A DNA stretch of 34,157 nucleotides from Candidatus Omnitrophota bacterium (GTDB lineage Bacteria; Omnitrophota; Gorgyraeia; Zapsychrales; JAHFFX01). The notes beneath the pieces are model-generated. The model did no database searches. It was given only the letters and a program-made list of their open reading frames with translations, and had not been told where the DNA came from. Shown piece by piece: positions 18,292-28,542 of this stretch; the stretch's first letter is position 1, and the number at the start of each line of letters is the position of its first letter. Location: assembly GCA_023247755.1 (NCBI GenBank), contig JAHFFX010000003.1, forward strand, positions 1 through 34,157, written 5' to 3'. Both the position numbers and the translations under genes were made by a program.

Positions 18292-18314
18292 AGCTACCTC
18301 CTCAGATGAGAATG

Positions 18315-18390
18315 GGTGACCAGTGACCAGGTCATCCGTCACAAGTTACCGGAAAACCGCTGGTGACCGTTGACTGGTCACGGGTCACTG
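18315..18390. repeat. GTGACCA-type heptad inverted repeat (proC-mtnP gap)
   Basis: GTGACCA occurs at 18316 and 18323, with degenerate heptads continuing to about 18350. The opposite-orientation forms GGTCACG and GGTCACT occur at 18376 and 18383. The right half contains the proC stop codon (18385-18387). The units match those bracketing the S23-like gene at 19202 and 19659, but no gene lies between the halves here. Confidence 0.75.
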
Positions 18391-19173
18391 CTTTGACAAC
18401 TCTTCTGCGCGCTTGCGCGCCGCCTGCAGCGCTTCCGCGATAATATCGTCGAGCTTATACTTGATGAATACGTCCGTGGCGGCCTGGGTGGTCCCGCCCT
18501 TGGAGGTGACCTTCGCGCGCAAAGCACCGGGCTCTTCCTTTTTCCGGTCGAGCAAGAGAACCCCGCCCAGGAACGTTTTACGCACCAGCTGCCGCGCCAG
18601 GTTCTCGTCCAGCCCCAGCTTTTTGGCGCCGCTGATGAGGCTTTCCATGAAAAGATAGACGTACGCGGGCCCGCTGCCGGAGACCGCGGTGACCGCATCG
18701 ATAAGATCTTCCGGAACGACCACGGTTTCGCCGACATGCTGGAAGATCTTCATGGCCGCATCGAGATCCCCTCTTTTGGCGAAGCGTCCCGCCGCCAGCG
18801 CCGTCATGCCTTCGCCGATCATGGCGGGCATGTTGGGCATGGTGCGGACCACCCGGGTCTTTTCGGGAAGACTTTTTTCAAGGAACCCGGAAGTGATCCC
18901 GGCCGCGATCGATACGACGAGCTTGGTCTTGTCCACGAGAAAGAACATCTCCTGCAGGGCCTCTTCGACGTCCTGGGGCTTGACGGCAATAATGACCACC
19001 TGGGATTGTTCGACGAGCTCTTTAACGCTGCAGGGTTTCAGCTTGTAGGTCTTCTGAAGATATTGCTGACGCGCGGGATCCTTCTCGCTCACCAGGACCT
19101 TGTAATTCTTGCGGATCCGCTGGAGGATCGCTTCCCCCATGTTCCCGCCGCCGATGATACCGATGGTTGTCAT
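18385..19173 (-). CDS. proC: Pyrroline-5-carboxylate reductase
   Basis: A 262-residue cytoplasmic enzyme making the last step of proline synthesis, NAD(P)H reduction of pyrroline-5-carboxylate. The N-terminal Rossmann fold opens with IGIIGGGNMGEAI. The catalytic C-terminal half has ITAVSGSGPAYVY-like DAVTAVSGSGPAYVYLFME, then TSKGGTTQAA. AAAGGA precedes the ATG. It is near yggS, a common pairing in bacteria. The stop codon lies within a heptad repeat. Length is normal. Confidence 0.95.
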   Translation of the reverse strand: MTTIGIIGGGNMGEAILQRIRKNYKVLVSEKDPARQQYLQKTYKLKPCSVKELVEQSQVVIIAVKPQDVEEALQEMFFLVDKTKLVVSIAAGITSGFLEKSLPEKTRVVRTMPNMPAMIGEGMTALAAGRFAKRGDLDAAMKIFQHVGETVVVPEDLIDAVTAVSGSGPAYVYLFMESLISGAKKLGLDENLARQLVRKTFLGGVLLLDRKKEEPGALRAKVTSKGGTTQAATDVFIKYKLDDIIAEALQAARKRAEELSKQ

Positions 19174-19201
19174 GTGGTTGTTCCTTTTGTCAAGGTGCCC
19201 C

Positions 19202-19690
19202 GTGACCAGTCACAAGTGACCAGTTAATTCGAAGAAAAACTTTTATGAAATTTCCAAAGCAATGCGCCGGTTTCTGTTCTTATCGCTTCTAATTCTTCGT
19301 AAATCTCACGGCTGATATACTCTAACTTAAAACAAAACTCGAGCAAGTATTCGACCTCTCTCAGTGATCCTAATGCAATGTTAGAAAACTGTTTGATTTC
19401 ATTTCTATTCTGCCGGCCGATACCCTCAACGATATTGGTGGGGATGGAAATTGCCGCTCGGCGAAGTTGTGAAGTCAACCCGTACATTTCTTCTCTAGGA
19501 AAACTTCGGGTGGATAAATAGATTTTATACGCCAGTTGATCTGCTTTTTGCCAAGCCATTAGATTTTTATACGCCTTTTCCATTTCCTTATCTCCTGGTT
19601 ATGGTTTCCTGTTAATAATTCAGGAAAAGGGTAGTTTTTCCTCCTTTTAACACCTACGACTTGTGACTGGTGACTTGGTCACTGGTCACC
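19202..19690. mobile_element. Candidate repeat-bounded cassette carrying an S23/IVP-like gene
   Basis: The S23-like gene is bracketed by 7-bp-unit repeats: GTGACCA-GTCACAA-GTGACCA at 19202-19222, and TGTGACT-GGTGACT with GGTCACC at 19662-19690. A 13-bp segment is exactly inverted between them (ACCAGTCACAAGT at 19205-19217, ACTTGTGACTGGT at 19659-19671). The enclosed DNA has about 42% GC by count over 19261-19560, clearly below proC on one side. No transposase is present. Calling it mobile is inference from the repeats and base composition. Confidence 0.45.
19224..19583 (-). CDS. Four-helix bundle protein (S23 / 23S rRNA intervening-sequence protein family)
   Basis: A 119-residue, all-helical protein of the S23/IVP family, distantly related to the Avd accessory proteins of diversity-generating retroelements. 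NLMAWQKADQLAYKIY, FPREEMYGLTSQLRRAAISI, IPTNIVEGIGR and NIALGSLREVEYLLEF are family signatures. Biochemical function is unknown for most members. GGAGATAAGG gives a good ribosome-binding site. The stop codon abuts one repeat and another lies about 75 bp upstream. Base composition is lower in GC than its neighbours. It is not inside an rRNA gene here, and I see no reverse transcriptase, so neither an rRNA intervening sequence nor a DGR is indicated. Confidence 0.85.
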   Translation of the reverse strand: MEKAYKNLMAWQKADQLAYKIYLSTRSFPREEMYGLTSQLRRAAISIPTNIVEGIGRQNRNEIKQFSNIALGSLREVEYLLEFCFKLEYISREIYEELEAIRTETGALLWKFHKSFSSN

Positions 19691-19697
19691 AATCGGA

Positions 19698-20448: not shown

Positions 20449-20538
20449 TTCTTCTGCATGTCGTTCCCCGCAGGGCACGCTGAAGTTGCCGCTTCTTTCA
20501 ACAAAAAATGGTGCGGGTCATCCCGCCCCAGATAGATA

Positions 20539-20615: not shown

Positions 20616-21299
20616 ATGAACTTAAAGATCAGGGATATTGCCGAATTGCTGCAAGTCTCGGAGCAGACCGTCTATCGCTGGATCCAGGAAAAAAAGATCC
20701 CCGCCTACAAGATCAATCATCAGTACCGCTTTAACAAGCTCGAGATCAACGATTGGATCCTGAAGAACCGCCTGGCCGTTTCGAAAAGAATCTACGACTT
20801 CAGCGCCGCCGGAACACCCGTCAGCCTCACGGACCTCCTGAAAAAAGGGGGCATTTTTTACGACAACGGTGGATCTTCGGTCGCAGAAATCATCCGCAAT
20901 GCCGGGGAGACGCTTCCCTTGCCGCCGGGCGCCGACCGAAAGACCGTGATTTACTCCCTCTTGCAGCGGGAGGAGATGATGCCCACCGCCATCGGTCGTG
21001 GGATCGCCATCCCGCATCCCCGCAACCCCCTTATCGCGGACATCGAGCATGAAAGCGTTTCGATTTTCTTGTTAAGAAATAAAATCGATTACAAAGCAAT
21101 CGACGGTGAACCGGTCCACACGCTCTTCATCGTGCTAAGCGCCAACCCGCAACGCCATCTAGAAGCCCTGGCCAAGATCTCCTTTTTGTGCCAACAAGAC
21201 GACTTCATCGGCCTTTTAAGAAAACCGGCGTTAGCAGAAGAAATTCTCGGTTATATCGAAAAAAAAGAAGCGGCCTGGCTTAAGAAAGACCCGAGATGA
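20616..21299 (+). CDS. Excisionase-type HTH fused to PTS EIIA (PtsN-like) domain
   Basis: A 227-residue fusion. Residues about 1-55 are a MerR/excisionase-type helix-turn-helix, with IRDIAELLQVSEQTVYRWIQ and a recognition wing ending near NDWILKN. Residues about 70-222 are a PTS EIIA type-2 (fructose/nitrogen) domain with GRGIAIPHPRNP, where His134 is the expected phosphorylation site. The likely role is a DNA-binding regulator whose activity follows the phosphorylation state of a PTS relay. The stop overlaps the start of the hyfB-like gene (ATGA), so it heads and is coupled to that operon. No good Shine-Dalgarno is seen before its ATG. Target promoters are unknown; autoregulation of the promoter at 20539 is plausible. 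Confidence 0.85.
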   Translation: MNLKIRDIAELLQVSEQTVYRWIQEKKIPAYKINHQYRFNKLEINDWILKNRLAVSKRIYDFSAAGTPVSLTDLLKKGGIFYDNGGSSVAEIIRNAGETLPLPPGADRKTVIYSLLQREEMMPTAIGRGIAIPHPRNPLIADIEHESVSIFLLRNKIDYKAIDGEPVHTLFIVLSANPQRHLEALAKISFLCQQDDFIGLLRKPALAEEILGYIEKKEAAWLKKDPR

Positions 21300-23290
21300 A
21301 TAATTTCTTGCTGGGAATTCTTTGTATATCCTTGGGCGGACTTTCTTCCCTGCTCAGCCCACCTCGCCAAAAAGGAAAAATCGTTTCCTTTTTTACCGGG
21401 ATCGGGATGTTGTTCATTCTTCTGACGACCGTGCCGGTCCTGCTCGTCGGCGGGACCTTGACGGGTTCATTCTATTTTAAACCCCCCATCGGCGCCGTTA
21501 CGCTCATCCTCGATCCCCTGGCGGCCTTTTTCGTCGCCTTGACCGCCGTCATGAGTTTTTGGGGAATAGTCTATGCCTCCGGGTATCTGCGGCACTATCA
21601 TGAGCGGGAGATTTACCCGCTGGGCTCACACTACTTCCTGATGTGCCTCCTCATCGTGGCCATGCTGCTTGTCCCGGTCGTACAGAACGCCCTGGCCTTT
21701 CTGGTCATTTGGGAAATCATGTCGCTGGCCTCGTTTTTCCTCGTTCTCTTTGAACACGACAAAAGCGAAGTGATGGAAGCCAGCTTGAACTACCTGGTGG
21801 CCATGCATGTCGGAGTGGCCTTTCTCTTGCTGGGTTTCATTTCTCTGGCCGTCAAATCGCAGAGCTTTGATTTTGCCTCCTTCCCTATAATAATAAGAGG
21901 AAGGGATTCATTCTCGGGAGGGTGGATACTCGCTTCGCTTTTGGTTGGGTTCGGCCTTAAAGCCGGCTTCGTCCCCTTGCACACCTGGCTTCCCAAGGCC
22001 CATCCGGCGGCCCCCAGCCCCATCTCGGCGCTCATGTCCGGAGTGATGATCAAAACCGGGATCTATGGCATTCTGCGGACATTGACCTTTATCGATCACC
22101 CCACCCTGACCCTTGGTTACACCATTTTGGGGCTGTCCCTTGTTTCAGGACTAATGGGCATTATCTATGCCGTTGCCCAAAACGACCTCAAAAGACTCCT
22201 CGCTTACAGCAGCATTGAGAACATCGGCATCATCGGCATCGGGATCGGCCTGGGTGTTTTGGGACAAGCCTATCATATCCCGGCGGTCGCGGCCTTCGGC
22301 TTTGCCGGCGCGCTTTTGCATGTCCTGAACCATTCCATATTCAAGGGACTGCTTTTTTACGGCGCGGGACTCGTTTACCAGAAAACGCATACCCGGGACA
22401 TGGAGATGTTGGGAGGACTCATCAAGAAAATGCCCGCCACGGCTTTTTGTTTCCTGGTGGCTTCGCTTGCAATCTGCGGGTTACCGCTCTTTAATGGATT
22501 TATCAGTGAATTTCTCATTTATTCCGGCTTTTTGAACGGCCTGAACTGGAAATTGCCGTTTTTCTCCGTTGCCTGCGTTCTATCGACGGCCGCGCTCGCC
22601 TTGATCGGAGCGGTCGCGCTTTTATGCTTCACAAAAGTCTATAGCATCGTATTTCTGGGATCTCCAAGAAGCGAGTTGGCGAAAACCCCTTCTGGGGTGG
22701 AACCGAAAAGCATGACGATCCCCATGATGATCCTCACGGGAGCGTGTCTTGGTCTGGGAATTTTCCCTCAAGAGCTGATTTTGTTGGTGGGACAACCGCT
22801 GCGCAGTTTGAACGTCCCCGACGGCCCCTCCCTTTTGGGAGGAAATATCTTTGTGACCTTGAACCAAATCTCCTCGGGGCTGCTGCTGTTTATCGCGGTC
22901 ACCGGCATAATTTATTTCCTGCGGCGGCAATTGCTGAAGAATCGCACCGTCCCGGCATTCCGAACCTGGGATTGCGGCTATCCGGTCCCCACTCCCCGCA
23001 TGCAATACTCCGCGGCCTCGTATTCCGCGTCTTTTCTCTCGCTGGCCGAATTTCTCATCCAGCGTCAGACGCAAAAGGATCCTCCTGAAGGACTCTTCCC
23101 CCAAAAGGCGCAATACCGGTCCCACAGCAAGGACATTTTTGAAGCATATGTCCTTCACCCGTTGTTGGTCGCCTTTAAAAAGTTCATGGATCTTTTCGCG
23201 GGGATCCAGAGCGGTAGCATTCAACAATATATCCTCTATGGATTGGTTTTTCTGACGGGCATCCTTCTGTGGATCGCCACGGTGAAATGA
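21296..23290 (+). CDS. hyfB: HyfB/HycC-like proton-translocating antiporter subunit
   Basis: A 664-residue membrane protein of the NuoL/MrpA-D family with about 14-16 helices, part of the ion-pumping arm of a complex I-like enzyme. Channel residues are retained: Glu140 in VIWEIMSL, Lys222 and His229 in LKAGFVPLHTWLPKAHP, and Lys253 in SGVMIKTGIYG. HVLNHSIFKGLLFYGAG is typical of HyfB/HycC. The C-terminal extension with RTWDCGYPVPTPRMQYSA is the Hyf/Hyc-type tail rather than the NuoL lateral helix. It starts inside the stop of the HTH-EIIA gene. Length is near that of E. coli HyfB. Ion identity (H+ or Na+) is unknown. Confidence 0.9.
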   Translation: MNNFLLGILCISLGGLSSLLSPPRQKGKIVSFFTGIGMLFILLTTVPVLLVGGTLTGSFYFKPPIGAVTLILDPLAAFFVALTAVMSFWGIVYASGYLRHYHEREIYPLGSHYFLMCLLIVAMLLVPVVQNALAFLVIWEIMSLASFFLVLFEHDKSEVMEASLNYLVAMHVGVAFLLLGFISLAVKSQSFDFASFPIIIRGRDSFSGGWILASLLVGFGLKAGFVPLHTWLPKAHPAAPSPISALMSGVMIKTGIYGILRTLTFIDHPTLTLGYTILGLSLVSGLMGIIYAVAQNDLKRLLAYSSIENIGIIGIGIGLGVLGQAYHIPAVAAFGFAGALLHVLNHSIFKGLLFYGAGLVYQKTHTRDMEMLGGLIKKMPATAFCFLVASLAICGLPLFNGFISEFLIYSGFLNGLNWKLPFFSVACVLSTAALALIGAVALLCFTKVYSIVFLGSPRSELAKTPSGVEPKSMTIPMMILTGACLGLGIFPQELILLVGQPLRSLNVPDGPSLLGGNIFVTLNQISSGLLLFIAVTGIIYFLRRQLLKNRTVPAFRTWDCGYPVPTPRMQYSAASYSASFLSLAEFLIQRQTQKDPPEGLFPQKAQYRSHSKDIFEAYVLHPLLVAFKKFMDLFAGIQSGSIQQYILYGLVFLTGILLWIATVK

Positions 23291-23291
23291 C

Positions 23292-24200
23292 ATGTTGACC
23301 ATTCTCGTTTTATTAACTGTTTCGCCGTTGTTCATCGGCATCATCAACCGGGTGAAATCCGTCTGCGCCGGACGGCAGGGGCCGGGCCTCCTTCAGCCGT
23401 ATTTCGATTATCTGCGTCTTTTTAGAAAAAGCCAGGTCGTGAGCCCCGCGACCTCTTTTATCTTTCAACTGGCCCCGACGATCTCCTGGACCACCGTCTT
23501 CTTCGCGGGACTCCTCATCCCCTTCGGCCCGCGACCGGCCGTGATCAGTTTTCCCGGGGATTTCATCCTCCTGGCTTATGTGTTGGCCTTCGGGCGTTTT
23601 TTTGCTTTGCTTTCCGCCATGGACACGGGCAGCAGCTTCGAGGGAATGGGCGCGAGCCGCGAGGTCACCTTCGCCACACTCGTCGAACCGGCCTTTTTCA
23701 TTCTTTTTTCCACCATCACTTTTCTGTCAGGCTTTCGGTCGCTCAGCGATGTCTTTGCGGCCCTCCACCAGAACGATTCCTGGACCCTAATAGTGATCTC
23801 CTTGAGCGTTCTTATCTTGTTTCTGATGATGCTAGTGGAAGGAAGCCGCCTCCCCATCGATGATCCCAACACGCATCTGGAACTGACGATGATCCACGAG
23901 GTCATGGTCCTGGACAACTCCGGTCCGGATCTGGGACTGATCCTTTACGGGACGGCCATGAAATTGGCGGCGATCGGCCTTTTGATCGCCAACCTTCTCG
24001 TTCCACCGGGGTTTGATATGCCTTTCTTGATGGTCCTGTTTCTCGGCATCCTTTTCGTATTGGCCGTGGCCATCGGAATCCTGGAATCGTCCATGGCCCG
24101 GCTGCGGATGGTTCACGTCCCGCAATTCGTTCTCGTCATGACATCCATCGGACTGCTAATCCTTTCGTTCGTATTTTTCAGCATCGGGGGGCACCGATGA
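23292..24200 (+). CDS. hyfC: HyfC/HycD-like membrane anchor (NuoH family)
   Basis: A 302-residue protein with about eight helices, the subunit joining the hydrophilic arm to the membrane arm. AGRQGPGLLQPYFDYLRLFRK and VEGSRLPIDDPNTHLELTMI are the family signatures. The acidic cluster in these loops corresponds to the quinone-side or connecting channel of NuoH. It begins one base after the hyfB stop and overlaps the hyfE-like gene by four bases. Length is normal. Confidence 0.92.
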   Translation: MLTILVLLTVSPLFIGIINRVKSVCAGRQGPGLLQPYFDYLRLFRKSQVVSPATSFIFQLAPTISWTTVFFAGLLIPFGPRPAVISFPGDFILLAYVLAFGRFFALLSAMDTGSSFEGMGASREVTFATLVEPAFFILFSTITFLSGFRSLSDVFAALHQNDSWTLIVISLSVLILFLMMLVEGSRLPIDDPNTHLELTMIHEVMVLDNSGPDLGLILYGTAMKLAAIGLLIANLLVPPGFDMPFLMVLFLGILFVLAVAIGILESSMARLRMVHVPQFVLVMTSIGLLILSFVFFSIGGHR

Positions 24201-24832
24201 CCGACCTGGTGATCGTCCTTTTCGGCCTCACGCTGCTTTACATTTCGGCCATCAGCCGCCTGGAAGGATACATCCGGGCCTTGGCGGTCCAGGGATTTTT
24301 ACTGACACTCCTCGTAGTGGTCGCCGGTGGACGAATCAATATCTGGAACCTCGCCTTTATCGTTCTGGAAACGCTGGGGTTCAAGACTTTCGTCATTCCG
24401 TGGTTTCTCACCAAGGTGGTTCGGGAAAACGAAATTTCCCGGGAGACCGAACCCTACATCACCAATTTCTACTCCCTGCTGTTCACAAGCCTCATTTTCG
24501 CTTTTAGTTTTTTCATCGCCTACTGGGCGGTCAGGAACGTCACCGATGTTCGGCCGCTCCATTTTGGGATCTCGATCGCCACCATCGTGTTCGGGCTCTT
24601 TATTATCCTCACGCGAAAGAAACTGATCACGCATACGATGGGGTTTATGATTATCGAAAATGGCATCTTCCTTTTGTCGCTGGCCAAAGTGCATGAAATG
24701 CCGATGATCGTCAATACCGGAATCCTGCTGGATCTATTTTTGGCGGTATTCCTCCTGGGAATTTTCATCAATAAGATCAAATCCTCTTTCGAAGAATTGG
24801 ACGTCAACGAGTTGACGTACCTGAAGGACTGA
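24197..24832 (+). CDS. hyfE: HyfE-like membrane subunit (NuoK-related)
   Basis: A 211-residue membrane protein with about six or seven helices. The second half (HTMGFMIIENGIFLLSL) is the NuoK-like region with a buried Glu typical of HyfE. The ATG lies within the hyfC stop (ATGA). Hyc-type hydrogenases lack this subunit, so its presence points to the Hyf/Ehr-type layout. Function is presumed to be part of the ion path. Confidence 0.88.
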   Translation: MTDLVIVLFGLTLLYISAISRLEGYIRALAVQGFLLTLLVVVAGGRINIWNLAFIVLETLGFKTFVIPWFLTKVVRENEISRETEPYITNFYSLLFTSLIFAFSFFIAYWAVRNVTDVRPLHFGISIATIVFGLFIILTRKKLITHTMGFMIIENGIFLLSLAKVHEMPMIVNTGILLDLFLAVFLLGIFINKIKSSFEELDVNELTYLKD

Positions 24833-24835
24833 CCT

Positions 24836-26245
24836 ATGATCGGCACCCTGCTCATCGCACCGTTGGTCTTAAGCGCCGTTCTGATCCTGGCCCGCTCTCC
24901 TCTCCTCAACCGGCTGGCCATTCTGGCTTATGCTGTTTTACATATGGGACTGTCGGTGGCGCTTTACTGGCGGCCGGAAAGCTTCCTTTCCTATTTTATG
25001 ACCGACGATCTGAACATCCTGTTCCTGCTGATCCTTTCGGTCCTGAACGCGGGGGTGGCCGTTTACAGTCTTGATTTCCTCAGAGAAGAAAGCATTTCGA
25101 AAAAATGGAACACCTACTATGCCGTGTTCCTGCTGTTGTTCGTTTTTTCGCTGACCGGGGCCATTTTAAGCGCGCACCTGGGGCTGTTCTGGGTCTTCAT
25201 GGAAGCGACGACACTCACCAGCGCCCCACTGGTGTTCTTTTACGGCCAAAAATCAAGCCTGGAGGCCACCTGGAAATACATCTTCATCTGCTCCATCGGG
25301 ATCTCCCTCGCTTTCGTGGGAATCGTCCTCCTTTCGATGGGCCAGACAAAACTAACGGATTCCCTCTTTTTTGCCGACCTTTACCGGAACGTCGATAAGC
25401 TGGCGCCGTTCTGGCTTAAGATATCCTTTCCTTTTATTTTGATCGGGTTCGGCACCAAAATGGGTCTGGCCCCGGTCCATGCGTGGCTTCCCGACGCCCA
25501 TTCCGAAGCACCCTCCCCGATCTCGGCTTTGCTTTCCGGGACACTCCTGAATGCCGCCTTCCTGGGGATCCTCAGGATCTATAAAATGATCGAAATCTCC
25601 CGACTACACAGCGAGATGGCGACGCTGTTATTATTGATGGGGTTCCTTTCGCTCTTCGTAAGCGCCATCTTCATCCTGAAGGTCAATAATTTTAAACGGA
25701 TGCTCGCGTACTCCTCGATAGAGAACATGGGGATTCTGCTGATCGGTATCGGCGTGGGTGGCGTGGGGCTTTGGGCGGCGATGCTGCACCTGCTGGCACA
25801 TTCCCTCAGCAAGGCCTCGTTCTTTTTGACTTCCGGGAATATCCTGCATCTGTACCAAACAAAGAACATCGACGGCGTGAAGGGACTTCTGCAGAAAGAC
25901 AAGTGGTCCGGGTGGCTCTGGATCGGGTGCTTCTTAAGCATCGTCGGGTTCCCGCCCTTTCCCATTTTCTTAAGCAAGTTTTTCCTGCTGACCGCCCTGC
26001 TTTCGAAGGGCTATTATTTTTTGGCGGCGATCTTTGTGCTGCTCTTGACCGTTATTCTCTTAGGTATGGGCCGTTCGGTTCTGTCGATGTCCTGCGGGGA
26101 ATGCAACGTGCCGACCTCGGGATACCGGCTGTCCTATTGTGCCCTGGTCCCTCAAATCGTCTTTATGATCATTTTGGTGTGGATCGGCATCGCGATGCCG
26201 GATGTCCTTAACGAGCTTCTTCGCCGATCGGTCCTGCTGCTTTAA
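24836..26245 (+). CDS. hyfF: HyfF-like antiporter subunit (NuoN/MrpD family)
   Basis: A 469-residue protein with about 13-14 helices, a second antiporter-type pump subunit. Glu123 in VFMEATTLTS, Lys208 in GFGTKMGLAPVHAWLPDAHSE with His215, and LKVNNFKRMLAYSSIENMG are the expected channel and loop motifs. It lies three bases after the hyfE-like stop. With HyfB it gives two pump modules to the complex. Length matches HyfF (about 480). Confidence 0.9.
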   Translation: MIGTLLIAPLVLSAVLILARSPLLNRLAILAYAVLHMGLSVALYWRPESFLSYFMTDDLNILFLLILSVLNAGVAVYSLDFLREESISKKWNTYYAVFLLLFVFSLTGAILSAHLGLFWVFMEATTLTSAPLVFFYGQKSSLEATWKYIFICSIGISLAFVGIVLLSMGQTKLTDSLFFADLYRNVDKLAPFWLKISFPFILIGFGTKMGLAPVHAWLPDAHSEAPSPISALLSGTLLNAAFLGILRIYKMIEISRLHSEMATLLLLMGFLSLFVSAIFILKVNNFKRMLAYSSIENMGILLIGIGVGGVGLWAAMLHLLAHSLSKASFFLTSGNILHLYQTKNIDGVKGLLQKDKWSGWLWIGCFLSIVGFPPFPIFLSKFFLLTALLSKGYYFLAAIFVLLLTVILLGMGRSVLSMSCGECNVPTSGYRLSYCALVPQIVFMIILVWIGIAMPDVLNELLRRSVLLL

Positions 26246-26267
26246 CCGCGGGGACCCGGAAAAATCC

Positions 26268-27770
26268 ATGAACTGGAAAATCACAAAAAACAATAAACCC
26301 ATCGGGATCGCGGACATTCCCCGCGGCAATGTCCAACAGCTGCGCAACGCCCTCATCAACCAATGCCGGCAGGGGAAAAGAGTCGTGTCGTTCTTTGGCC
26401 ACCCGGACCGCAAGGGGATGGTCTTGTTCGCCGTTCTCACCGATGACCAGAACTCCCGATTGCTCGTGGCCTGCGCCGATCTCGGAGCTGAGAGGGCGTA
26501 TCCATCGATCACGCCGGAAGTGCCGGCCTTGCATCTCTTCGAGAGGGAGATCTTCGAGCAATTCGGCATCGAACCGCAGGGGCACCCCTGGCTAAAACCG
26601 GTGCGCTATCCCTTCCGCCGCTTCGATCCCTCTCAGAACATAGGCAACTATCCTTTCTTCCGGATCGAGGGAGAGGACATCCACGAAGTCGGCGTAGGCC
26701 CCATCCACGCCGGGATCATCGAACCCGGCCATTTCCGCTTTCAATGCCGGGGAGAAAAGATCCATCATCTGGAAATCCAGCTGGGATATCAACATCGCGG
26801 CGTCGAGGAGCTGTTCGTGGGACCGATCAATCCCGGCGAACCGCGATTCAAACCACATCTCGCGGAAAGAATCGCGGGGGATTCGGCGGTCGCCCACGCC
26901 ACCGCTTATGCTCAAATCATGGAATCCCTCGCCCGGATCGAAGTGTCCCGCCGCGCCCAGGCCATCCGGGCCATCGCCCTGGAACTGGAGCGAATCGCCG
27001 TCCACGTGGGCGATCTGGGCGCGATCTCCAACGACATCGCCCATCTTCTGGGAAGCGCCGTCTTTGGGGCCATCCGAACGGCGGTCATCAACACCTCACT
27101 GTCCCTCTGCGGCAGCCGCTTCGGCCAGGGATTGATCCGGCCGGGAGGCGTTCTTTACGATCTTGATGATGAATTAAAGGAAAGAATGAAGCGGACCCTC
27201 AACAAAGTGCTCGAGGACGTCATCCGGATGAGCGAATCAATGCTGGCGACCTCCAGCGTCCTATCGCGTCTTGAGAAAACCGGGATCGTTACCAAGCAAC
27301 AGGCCCTGGACATCGGGTTGGTAGGCCCGGTGGCAAGGGCTTCGGGCGTGGCCATGGATACGCGTGCGGACCACCCGTTCGGTAACTACCGTTATTTTCC
27401 GATCCATAAGATCACTATGCCCGGCGGAGATGTTTTCGCCCGGACATTCATGCGTTACGTCGAGATCAAGCAGTCCGTCAATTTTATCCTGGAGCAGTTG
27501 GAACATTTTTCCCGGGAAGGCTCCTTATCGGATCCGGTGGAAAATCTTATGGCGGAGGGCTTCTGCGTGTCAATGGTGGAAGGCTGGCGCGGGGAGATCG
27601 CGCATGTGGTTCTCACCGATATCCAGGGGAATCCGGTCAGATACAAAATCAAGGACCCTTCGTTCAATAATTGGCTGGGACTGGCCATCGCCGTAAGGAA
27701 CAACGGCATTTCGGATTTTCCGTTATGCAACAAGAGTTTCAATCTGTCCTATAGCGGTCACGACCTGTAA
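26268..27770 (+). CDS. hyfG: HyfG-like NuoC-NuoD fusion subunit lacking Ni-Fe cysteines
   Basis: A 500-residue cytoplasmic subunit using the ATG at 26268; the ORF-track start lies inside hyfF and was rejected. Residues about 15-120 are a NuoC/HycE-N 30-kDa domain (LHLFEREIFEQFGI). The rest is the NuoD/large-subunit domain (QLGYQHRGVEELF). Where Ni-Fe hydrogenases carry RxCGxC, this protein reads ERIAGDSAVAHATAYA (Ala203, Ser206). The C-terminal DPCxxC is replaced by LCNKS near residue 487. The Ni-Fe centre therefore cannot form normally. This matches 'Ehr'-type complexes rather than a hydrogenase. The electron partner of the active-site cavity is unknown. Confidence 0.9.
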   Translation: MNWKITKNNKPIGIADIPRGNVQQLRNALINQCRQGKRVVSFFGHPDRKGMVLFAVLTDDQNSRLLVACADLGAERAYPSITPEVPALHLFEREIFEQFGIEPQGHPWLKPVRYPFRRFDPSQNIGNYPFFRIEGEDIHEVGVGPIHAGIIEPGHFRFQCRGEKIHHLEIQLGYQHRGVEELFVGPINPGEPRFKPHLAERIAGDSAVAHATAYAQIMESLARIEVSRRAQAIRAIALELERIAVHVGDLGAISNDIAHLLGSAVFGAIRTAVINTSLSLCGSRFGQGLIRPGGVLYDLDDELKERMKRTLNKVLEDVIRMSESMLATSSVLSRLEKTGIVTKQQALDIGLVGPVARASGVAMDTRADHPFGNYRYFPIHKITMPGGDVFARTFMRYVEIKQSVNFILEQLEHFSREGSLSDPVENLMAEGFCVSMVEGWRGEIAHVVLTDIQGNPVRYKIKDPSFNNWLGLAIAVRNNGISDFPLCNKSFNLSYSGHDL

Positions 27771-27780
27771 GAGAGGGAGC

Positions 27781-28542
27781 ATGCTCAATCCATTGAAAAT
27801 CCGGTGGCATCAAGGACATCAGACGATTCCCAACGTCCGGACGGCCGCAGTCGATGCCAAGTTCCCAGGGCTTCCCGTCCTCAACGACGACCTCCTTGCG
27901 GAGGATGCGGCAGCGCTTCAGAATCTTTGTCCGACGAAAGCCATTTCGATCGATCCTTTGAGAATCGATCTGGGCAAGTGCATCTTCTGCGGGGATTGTG
28001 AGCGCTTCTGCAAGAACGGGGCCATCCGTTTCTCTAACGAGTACAAGCTGGCTTCGACCTCCCGGCAGCAGCTCATCGTCGATCGCCGCACCAGCGCGGA
28101 CACTTATCGGAAAAGCGCAATTCGCGTGCGCGAGGAAATCAAACGCCTCTTCGGAAAGTCTCTAAAGTTGCGCTCTGTCTCCGCCGGCGGCTGCAACACC
28201 TGCGAAATGGAACTGAACGCTTGCGGCAACGTCAACTTCGACATGGGCCGCTTCGGCATCGAAATCGTGGCATCCCCCCGCCACGCGGACGGGATCGTCA
28301 TCACCGGCCCCATTTCGGAGAATATGGCCCAGCCCCTGGAAGACGCCTACCGTGCCACTCCCGATCCCAAGATCGTGATCCTCGCCGGAAGCTGTGCGAT
28401 CAGCGGCGGGATTTTTGCTCACTCTCCCACGCTTAAGCGGGAATTTCTGCAGAAATATCCCGTGGACCTGTTCGTCCCAGGATGCCCCTTTCATCCGCTC
28501 ACCTTCATCAATGGTGTGCTGGATTTCCTGGGTCGCAAATAA
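27781..28542 (+). CDS. hyfI: HyfI-like NuoB-family subunit with N-terminal ferredoxin domain
   Basis: A 253-residue fusion. Residues about 45-85 are a ferredoxin-like segment with CIFCGDCERFC (Cys67/70/73/77) and an upstream Cys50-Pro, enough for one [4Fe-4S] cluster. The other cluster's first three cysteines are missing. Residues about 130-253 are NuoB/HycG-like, with GGCNTCEMEL (Cys138/141), GSCAISGG (Cys205) and PGCPFHP (Cys235), the N2-type cluster ligands. It thus combines the roles of HyfH and HyfI. It lies 10 bp after hyfG with a GAGGGAG site, and is the last gene of the operon. The C-terminal end nearly touches the convergent addB-like gene. Confidence 0.9.
   Translation: MLNPLKIRWHQGHQTIPNVRTAAVDAKFPGLPVLNDDLLAEDAAALQNLCPTKAISIDPLRIDLGKCIFCGDCERFCKNGAIRFSNEYKLASTSRQQLIVDRRTSADTYRKSAIRVREEIKRLFGKSLKLRSVSAGGCNTCEMELNACGNVNFDMGRFGIEIVASPRHADGIVITGPISENMAQPLEDAYRATPDPKIVILAGSCAISGGIFAHSPTLKREFLQKYPVDLFVPGCPFHPLTFINGVLDFLGRK

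Follow-up and report, generated by a model that had tools for sequence, protein, structure and literature searches.

We conclude that seven co-directional genes at positions 20616-28542 of the stretch of DNA analyzed here (the window: 34,157 nucleotides of Candidatus Omnitrophota contig JAHFFX010000003.1, from a genome of 2.4 Mb that is 91% complete) form an operon for an energy-converting hydrogenase related (Ehr) complex, which by its sequence cannot be a [NiFe] hydrogenase and is of a kind already described (PMC6349859, PMC7894505). What appears to be new is its conserved regulator of the phosphotransferase system (PTS), a protein with a helix-turn-helix (HTH) and an EIIA domain (HTH-EIIA), whose gene heads the operon. 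Because the two occur together in at least ten bacterial phyla, the Ehr complex, a predicted ion pump with a redox chemistry other than that of hydrogenases, is probably under the control of a PTS-Ntr-like sensor. Ehr is spread over many anaerobic phyla, and a partner gene kept so widely would offer a general way of learning under which conditions cells employ the complex.

The Ehr operon and its large subunit

The large subunit (EhrL/HyfG-like, with Complex1_30kDa and 49kDa domains, that is, NuoC and NuoD fused; 26268..27770, + strand) retains none of the four cysteines that bind nickel in hydrogenases. In an alignment of 131 sequences the ligand columns hold A225, S228, S516 and G519 of the window protein; cysteine stands at these columns in 100% of hydrogenases and in 14-21%, 0%, 0% and 0% of the Ehr clade, and no conserved cysteine pair substituting for them was found within the Ehr alignment. 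A preliminary description of the window had read AGDS (26874-26885) in place of CGxC, and the alignment agrees. It had also noted the loss of DPCxxC, which is correct, but the replacement is NLSYSG (N514-G519, at 27741-27758) and not LCNKS, which lies slightly upstream (residues 508-512). The protein ends three residues past the old ligand position and has no cleavable C-terminal tail. HypD is required for making the NiFe cofactor. It was not found in 13 of the 16 Omnitrophota genomes with this operon, the 91% complete window genome included, which leaves these 13 with no known pathway to the NiFe(CN)2CO group.

In a tree of 130 rows (IQ-TREE, quick mode), 109 Ehr sequences, including those of Geobacter, Melainabacteria and the window, form one clade (SH-aLRT 100) separate from HycE/HyfG, the Omnitrophota group 4 hydrogenases and NuoD; flagged long branches leave the order of the deep splits unsure, with no placement of Ehr within the catalytic hydrogenases. 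Ligand loss, a position outside the hydrogenases and the missing HypD thus lead to the Ehr assignment that the preliminary description had proposed. Across Ehr, H177, D227, N510, K511, S516 and D521 are near-invariant, being rare or absent in hydrogenases, and C509 is kept at 96%, a pattern suggesting that the site has been remodelled and is still functional. The AlphaFold2 (AF2) model is of low confidence at the C-terminal end and in the loops that once formed the active site, and its best match is HycE of the E. coli formate hydrogenlyase (FHL; 7z0s_E, TM 0.82).

All seven genes (HTH-EIIA, B, C, E, F, G and I; open reading frame (ORF) list, Pfam and NCBIfam) lie on the + strand where they had been placed. 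The end of the HTH-EIIA gene (20616..21299) overlaps by ATGA the start of hyfB at 21296, as the preliminary description said. There follow an EhrA/HyfB-like (NuoL/M-type) antiporter-like subunit (21296..23290, 664 aa; NCBIfam hydrogenase 4 subunit B, 544 bits), a HyfC/NuoH-like subunit (23292..24200, 302 aa; Pfam NADHdh, 115 bits), a HyfE-like subunit with a NuoK-type C-terminal part (24197..24832, 211 aa; a weak Pfam match and an NCBIfam match of 67 bits, below cut-off) and a HyfF-like (NuoN/M-type) antiporter-like subunit (24836..26245, 469 aa; Pfam, and NCBIfam at 356 bits). The hyfG ORF opens at 26202, a start that would give it a 44-base overlap with hyfF, and translation more likely begins from the ATG at 26268. 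The EhrS small subunit (27781..28542; Pfam Fer4 and Oxidored_q6) completes the set. Proton_antipo_M occurs twice, in the HyfB-like and HyfF-like subunits, and with the NuoH-like and NuoB-like subunits in the same cluster the composition is that by which Ehr is recognized; the NADH module NuoEFG was not found among the operon genes (ORF list and Pfam).

The N-terminal part of EhrS has a single 4Fe-4S ferredoxin motif (CIFCGDCERFC), a second motif being degenerate, and its NuoB-like part has the four N2-cluster cysteines (CxxC, GSC, GCP) that the preliminary description reported. The same description held that the membrane arm keeps its channel lysines and glutamates, and this is largely true in alignment with E. 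coli Hyf, Hyc and Nuo, except that HyfF has N for the second lysine, as does E. coli HyfF, and carries K rather than E at the variable position of IFLS(E/K)F.

HTH-EIIA and its linkage to Ehr

The HTH-EIIA protein (227 aa) has HTH_17 at residues 3-52, a linker, and PTS_EIIA_2 at residues 74-216. The closest PDB match to its AF2 model (pLDDT 91) is PtsN (3urr); its score against the PtsN equivalog TIGR01419 is below cut-off (48.6 vs 138.7 bits). In an alignment of 30 sequences the phospho-acceptor H134 and H181 are invariant, and we read the protein as a PTS-Ntr-like output protein in which an excisionase/MerR-type DNA-binding domain is joined to EIIA. An assignment to the antiphage family MAD1 (NF047737, 67.6 against a cut-off of 80) was rejected, since the match covers the generic HTH domain only. 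The phospho-acceptor histidine is kept in every Ehr-linked EIIA apart from one fragment ahead of Ehr (L132:509-799), which has Gln at this position (AIPQ) and is possibly a decaying copy.

In a survey of 193 Omnitrophota genomes, the Ehr type of the window was present in 16, and HTH-EIIA heads the operon in all of them, three apparent separations being contig breaks at which HTH-EIIA precedes hyfB in each. Outside these 16, one genome (G076) has HTH-EIIA with hyfB, and all 17 strong HTH-EIIA matches in this survey are hyfB-linked. The collections consulted consist mainly of metagenome-assembled genomes. For a wider view we considered 80 named loci, the best among the matches listed and not a random sample, so that their counts are not a prevalence: EIIA is inside the operon in 34, absent from 26 and not assessable in 20 (34/60 informative). 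The 34 belong to Planctomycetota, Verrucomicrobiota, Thermodesulfobacteriota, Spirochaetota, Myxococcota, Bacteroidota, Lentisphaerota, Omnitrophota, Zixiibacteriota, Acidobacteriota and three unnamed bacteria. Neither of the two outcomes by which the preliminary description would have been refuted came about: the HTH-EIIA neighbor occurs well outside this genome, and the large subunit is not placed among catalytic group 4 hydrogenases with relocated cysteines. Among the 80, the EIIA gene is first in most operons that have it and commonly overlaps or abuts the next subunit gene, and it is the only frequent non-subunit neighbor, no other such family occurring in more than four loci. Each genome has thousands of genes, and the adjacency is thus hardly due to chance.

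Pairwise distances of EIIA and EhrL are correlated (Mantel r 0.66, with 0 of 5000 permutations as high). The large-subunit tree demands a minimum of nine EIIA gains or losses, the absences being concentrated in the clade of the Melainabacteria and in a single one of Bacteroidota (most Bacteroidota). The window Ehr is nearest on the tree to sequences of Spirochaetota, Ignavibacteriota and Bacteroidota, not to other Omnitrophota ones, and those neighbors with enough upstream sequence (L064, L065, L067) carry EIIA too; it is fair to suppose that the whole HTH-EIIA and Ehr unit was horizontally transferred.

Several further features of these loci are recorded here. The clade B Omnitrophota Ehr of L171, L172 and L173 lacks the ferredoxin part in its short small subunit (~170 aa) and has no adjoining HTH-EIIA; in L172 (11472-13714, genome G167) it is followed by NfnAB-like genes, for GltA and for a subunit resembling sulfide/dihydroorotate dehydrogenase, which hint at NADPH/ferredoxin chemistry, with three additional antiporter-like genes upstream. 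One Verrucomicrobiota genome has a tandem pair of Ehr-like operons (L130:4249-19931), in the second of which the large subunit has diverged. In two Omnitrophota genomes and a Verrucomicrobiota locus, the gene directly ahead of the HTH-EIIA-Ehr operon encodes a SulP-family anion permease (PF00916, tested on L174); two further loci have it nearby, divergent in a Spirochaete (L174:7255-8868, L170:1943-3604, L127:2363-4270, L126:3-1769, L134:2439-4106), a recurrence too rare for a regular operon member. In the window, an operator search upstream of the operon gave just one imperfect 9-bp palindrome, at 20509, no better than chance, and copies of a GTGAC/GTCAC-rich repeat stand as inverted pairs of up to 35 nt at 18312-19693, around proC and the gene of a four-helix-bundle protein (19224-19583).

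Probable control of Ehr by the phosphotransferase system

HPr and EI-family proteins are present in all 16 Ehr genomes, by an EI search with PF02896, a domain that also matches phosphoenolpyruvate (PEP) synthase and pyruvate phosphate dikinase (PPDK); in the window genome a true EI (TIGR01417, 641 bits) is encoded on contig C38, and EI, HPr, YvcK and a PtsN-like EIIA are clustered together. PTS_EIIC permease (PF02378) was not found in any of the 16, other EIIC families not having been searched. With EI and HPr present and PTS_EIIC absent, the PTS of these genomes looks regulatory.

What would such a PTS sense? The preliminary description proposed carbon or nitrogen status, which is plausible, but the neighborhoods of the HTH-EIIA paralogs point at least equally to ion/proton homeostasis. 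Ten of the 13 non-Ehr paralog loci examined adjoin Na_H_Exchanger proteins, a CitMHS/NhaD-type transporter, ClC or CrcB; two (L202, L203) have no such neighbor and one contig (L054) is too short to judge. In a Spirochaetota locus (L201:891-3089) the gene immediately after that of HTH-EIIA encodes a cation/proton antiporter to which an EIIA domain is itself fused. Unphosphorylated PtsN of E. coli binds and inhibits the K+/H+ antiporter YcgO (PMC11808508). Because the Ehr membrane arm consists of antiporter-like subunits, control of ion flux may be a theme common to the HTH-EIIA family.

The mechanism we propose draws on the genes, from which we infer ion pumping, its direction, the electron donor and acceptor, the phosphorylation and the mode of control. 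A low-potential donor, either reduced ferredoxin or a partner dehydrogenase, would feed electrons in at the 4Fe-4S motif of EhrS, from where they would pass via the NuoB-type cluster to an acceptor that would be reduced in the remodelled cavity of the large subunit. Through HyfC and HyfE the energy would reach subunits B and F, both antiporter-like, so that H+ or Na+ is moved; such redox-driven translocation is suggested by the kinds of subunits present. PEP, through EI and HPr, would determine whether HTH-EIIA is phosphorylated at His134. HTH-EIIA would accordingly tune Ehr output, acting on operon transcription through its HTH, or binding to the antiporter-like subunits in the way that unphosphorylated PtsN binds YcgO, or both.

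There is almost an even chance that HTH-EIIA is instead purely a transcriptional autoregulator, in which phosphorylation alters DNA binding and the complex is not contacted. The HTH is retained in nearly all linked copies, diverged Verrucomicrobiota included (L130, HTH_17 27.4 bits), and the gene is usually first, both as expected of an autoregulator. However, HTH-EIIA lies between subunit genes in some Verrucomicrobiota and Desulfomicrobium, which is unusual for one, and the paralogs that accompany ion transporters, one of these transporters having a fused EIIA domain, suggest protein contact. A further reading, that HTH-EIIA is a peripheral phosphorylation-dependent gate binding the antiporter-like subunits, within a wider family dedicated to cation/proton and anion transporters, is possible though rather unlikely; were it true, Ehr would be a complex I-family enzyme under PTS control.

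Control of Ehr by a PTS-Ntr-like sensor, by whichever route, has points against it. EIIA is not required for Ehr function, as 26 of the 60 informative loci are without it, and clade B Ehr, common in Omnitrophota, lacks HTH-EIIA in the three loci inspected. Position in an operon does not by itself show regulation, the EIIA could act elsewhere instead, and the spacing of the genes is the basis on which co-transcription is predicted. If this control is nevertheless real, then PTS-Ntr control reaches beyond K+ transporters to a redox-driven pump, a question approachable in cultured Geobacteraceae such as Geomonas limicola (L096), in which HTH-EIIA is immediately ahead of the Ehr genes.

The role of Ehr and comparison with known systems

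Which reaction does Ehr catalyze? A formate-linked unit (FDH-Ehr) was proposed for Margulisbacteria/Saganbacteria (Carnevali 2019; PMC6349859) and suggested for Geobacter, and the G. sulfurreducens Ehr (GSU0739-45) was more abundant in formate-grown cells than under hydrogen-containing conditions (PMC7894505). The window genome has one distant gene like that of the formate dehydrogenase (Fdh) alpha subunit, on another contig (487 bits, below cut-off). We nonetheless consider a formate link improbable here: Fdh-alpha is above cut-off in none of the 16 Ehr genomes, with no match whatever in 10, and no fdh gene is recurrent beside Ehr in the 80 loci, so that a formate dehydrogenase partner is unsupported as a general rule. 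Equally doubtful is a quinone reductase, complex I-like and without the NADH module. Fold and subunits are in common with Nuo, and cytochrome bd is present in some of the 16 genomes (four clear cases), but it was not found in that of the window or in most of the others. The NuoD quinone-site patterns GPxHPS(T/A)HG and DYL/EYL are missing from the aligned large subunit, which has a hydrogenase-like EPGHFRF stretch instead, and a complex I gene of the NuoD type (L143) is already present in the window genome. UbiA-type genes, tried as a quinone marker, are uninformative, being present in Ehr genomes and also in 14 of 14 control genomes. That Ehr is a [NiFe] hydrogenase with relocated ligands, as the fold nearest HycE might suggest, is barely conceivable given the missing replacement cysteine pair, HypD and cleavable tail and the tree position.

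The closest counterparts of the window complex are the Ehr of G. sulfurreducens (GSU0739-45) and of Margulisbacteria/Melainabacteria, which have the same subunit set (NuoL-like EhrA, HyfE-like EhrC, EhrL, EhrS); the Ehr literature states that Ni-Fe ligands are lacking, as in the window protein. Geobacter-family loci (L096, L099, L111, L122) are in the same tree clade, although Geobacteraceae Ehr often has two NuoL-like genes and the window one. No EIIA gene is mentioned in the passages of PMC6349859 and PMC7894505 that were searched, and the open-access literature, to which our search was confined, yielded no report of EIIA with Ehr or hydrogenase-4, in line with the preliminary description, which had thought the arrangement undescribed. 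With E. coli hydrogenase-4/FHL (HyfG, HycE) the window shares the HyfB/C/E/F membrane arm, the fused C+D large subunit and the best-matching fold, but it has no Ni ligands, C-terminal tail, separate HyfA/D/H-type subunits or nearby maturation genes. Mbx/MBS of P. furiosus (6u8y) likewise has antiporter-like subunits and a large subunit that derives from hydrogenases yet carries out no H2 chemistry, but its subunit set differs and the profile match is weaker (125.6 bits) than that to FHL or MBH. Finally, HTH-EIIA resembles PtsN/EIIA-Ntr in its EIIA fold, its conserved histidine and the company of EI and HPr without PTS_EIIC, whereas it differs in having an N-terminal excisionase-type HTH and in residing in an Ehr operon rather than with general nitrogen/PTS genes.

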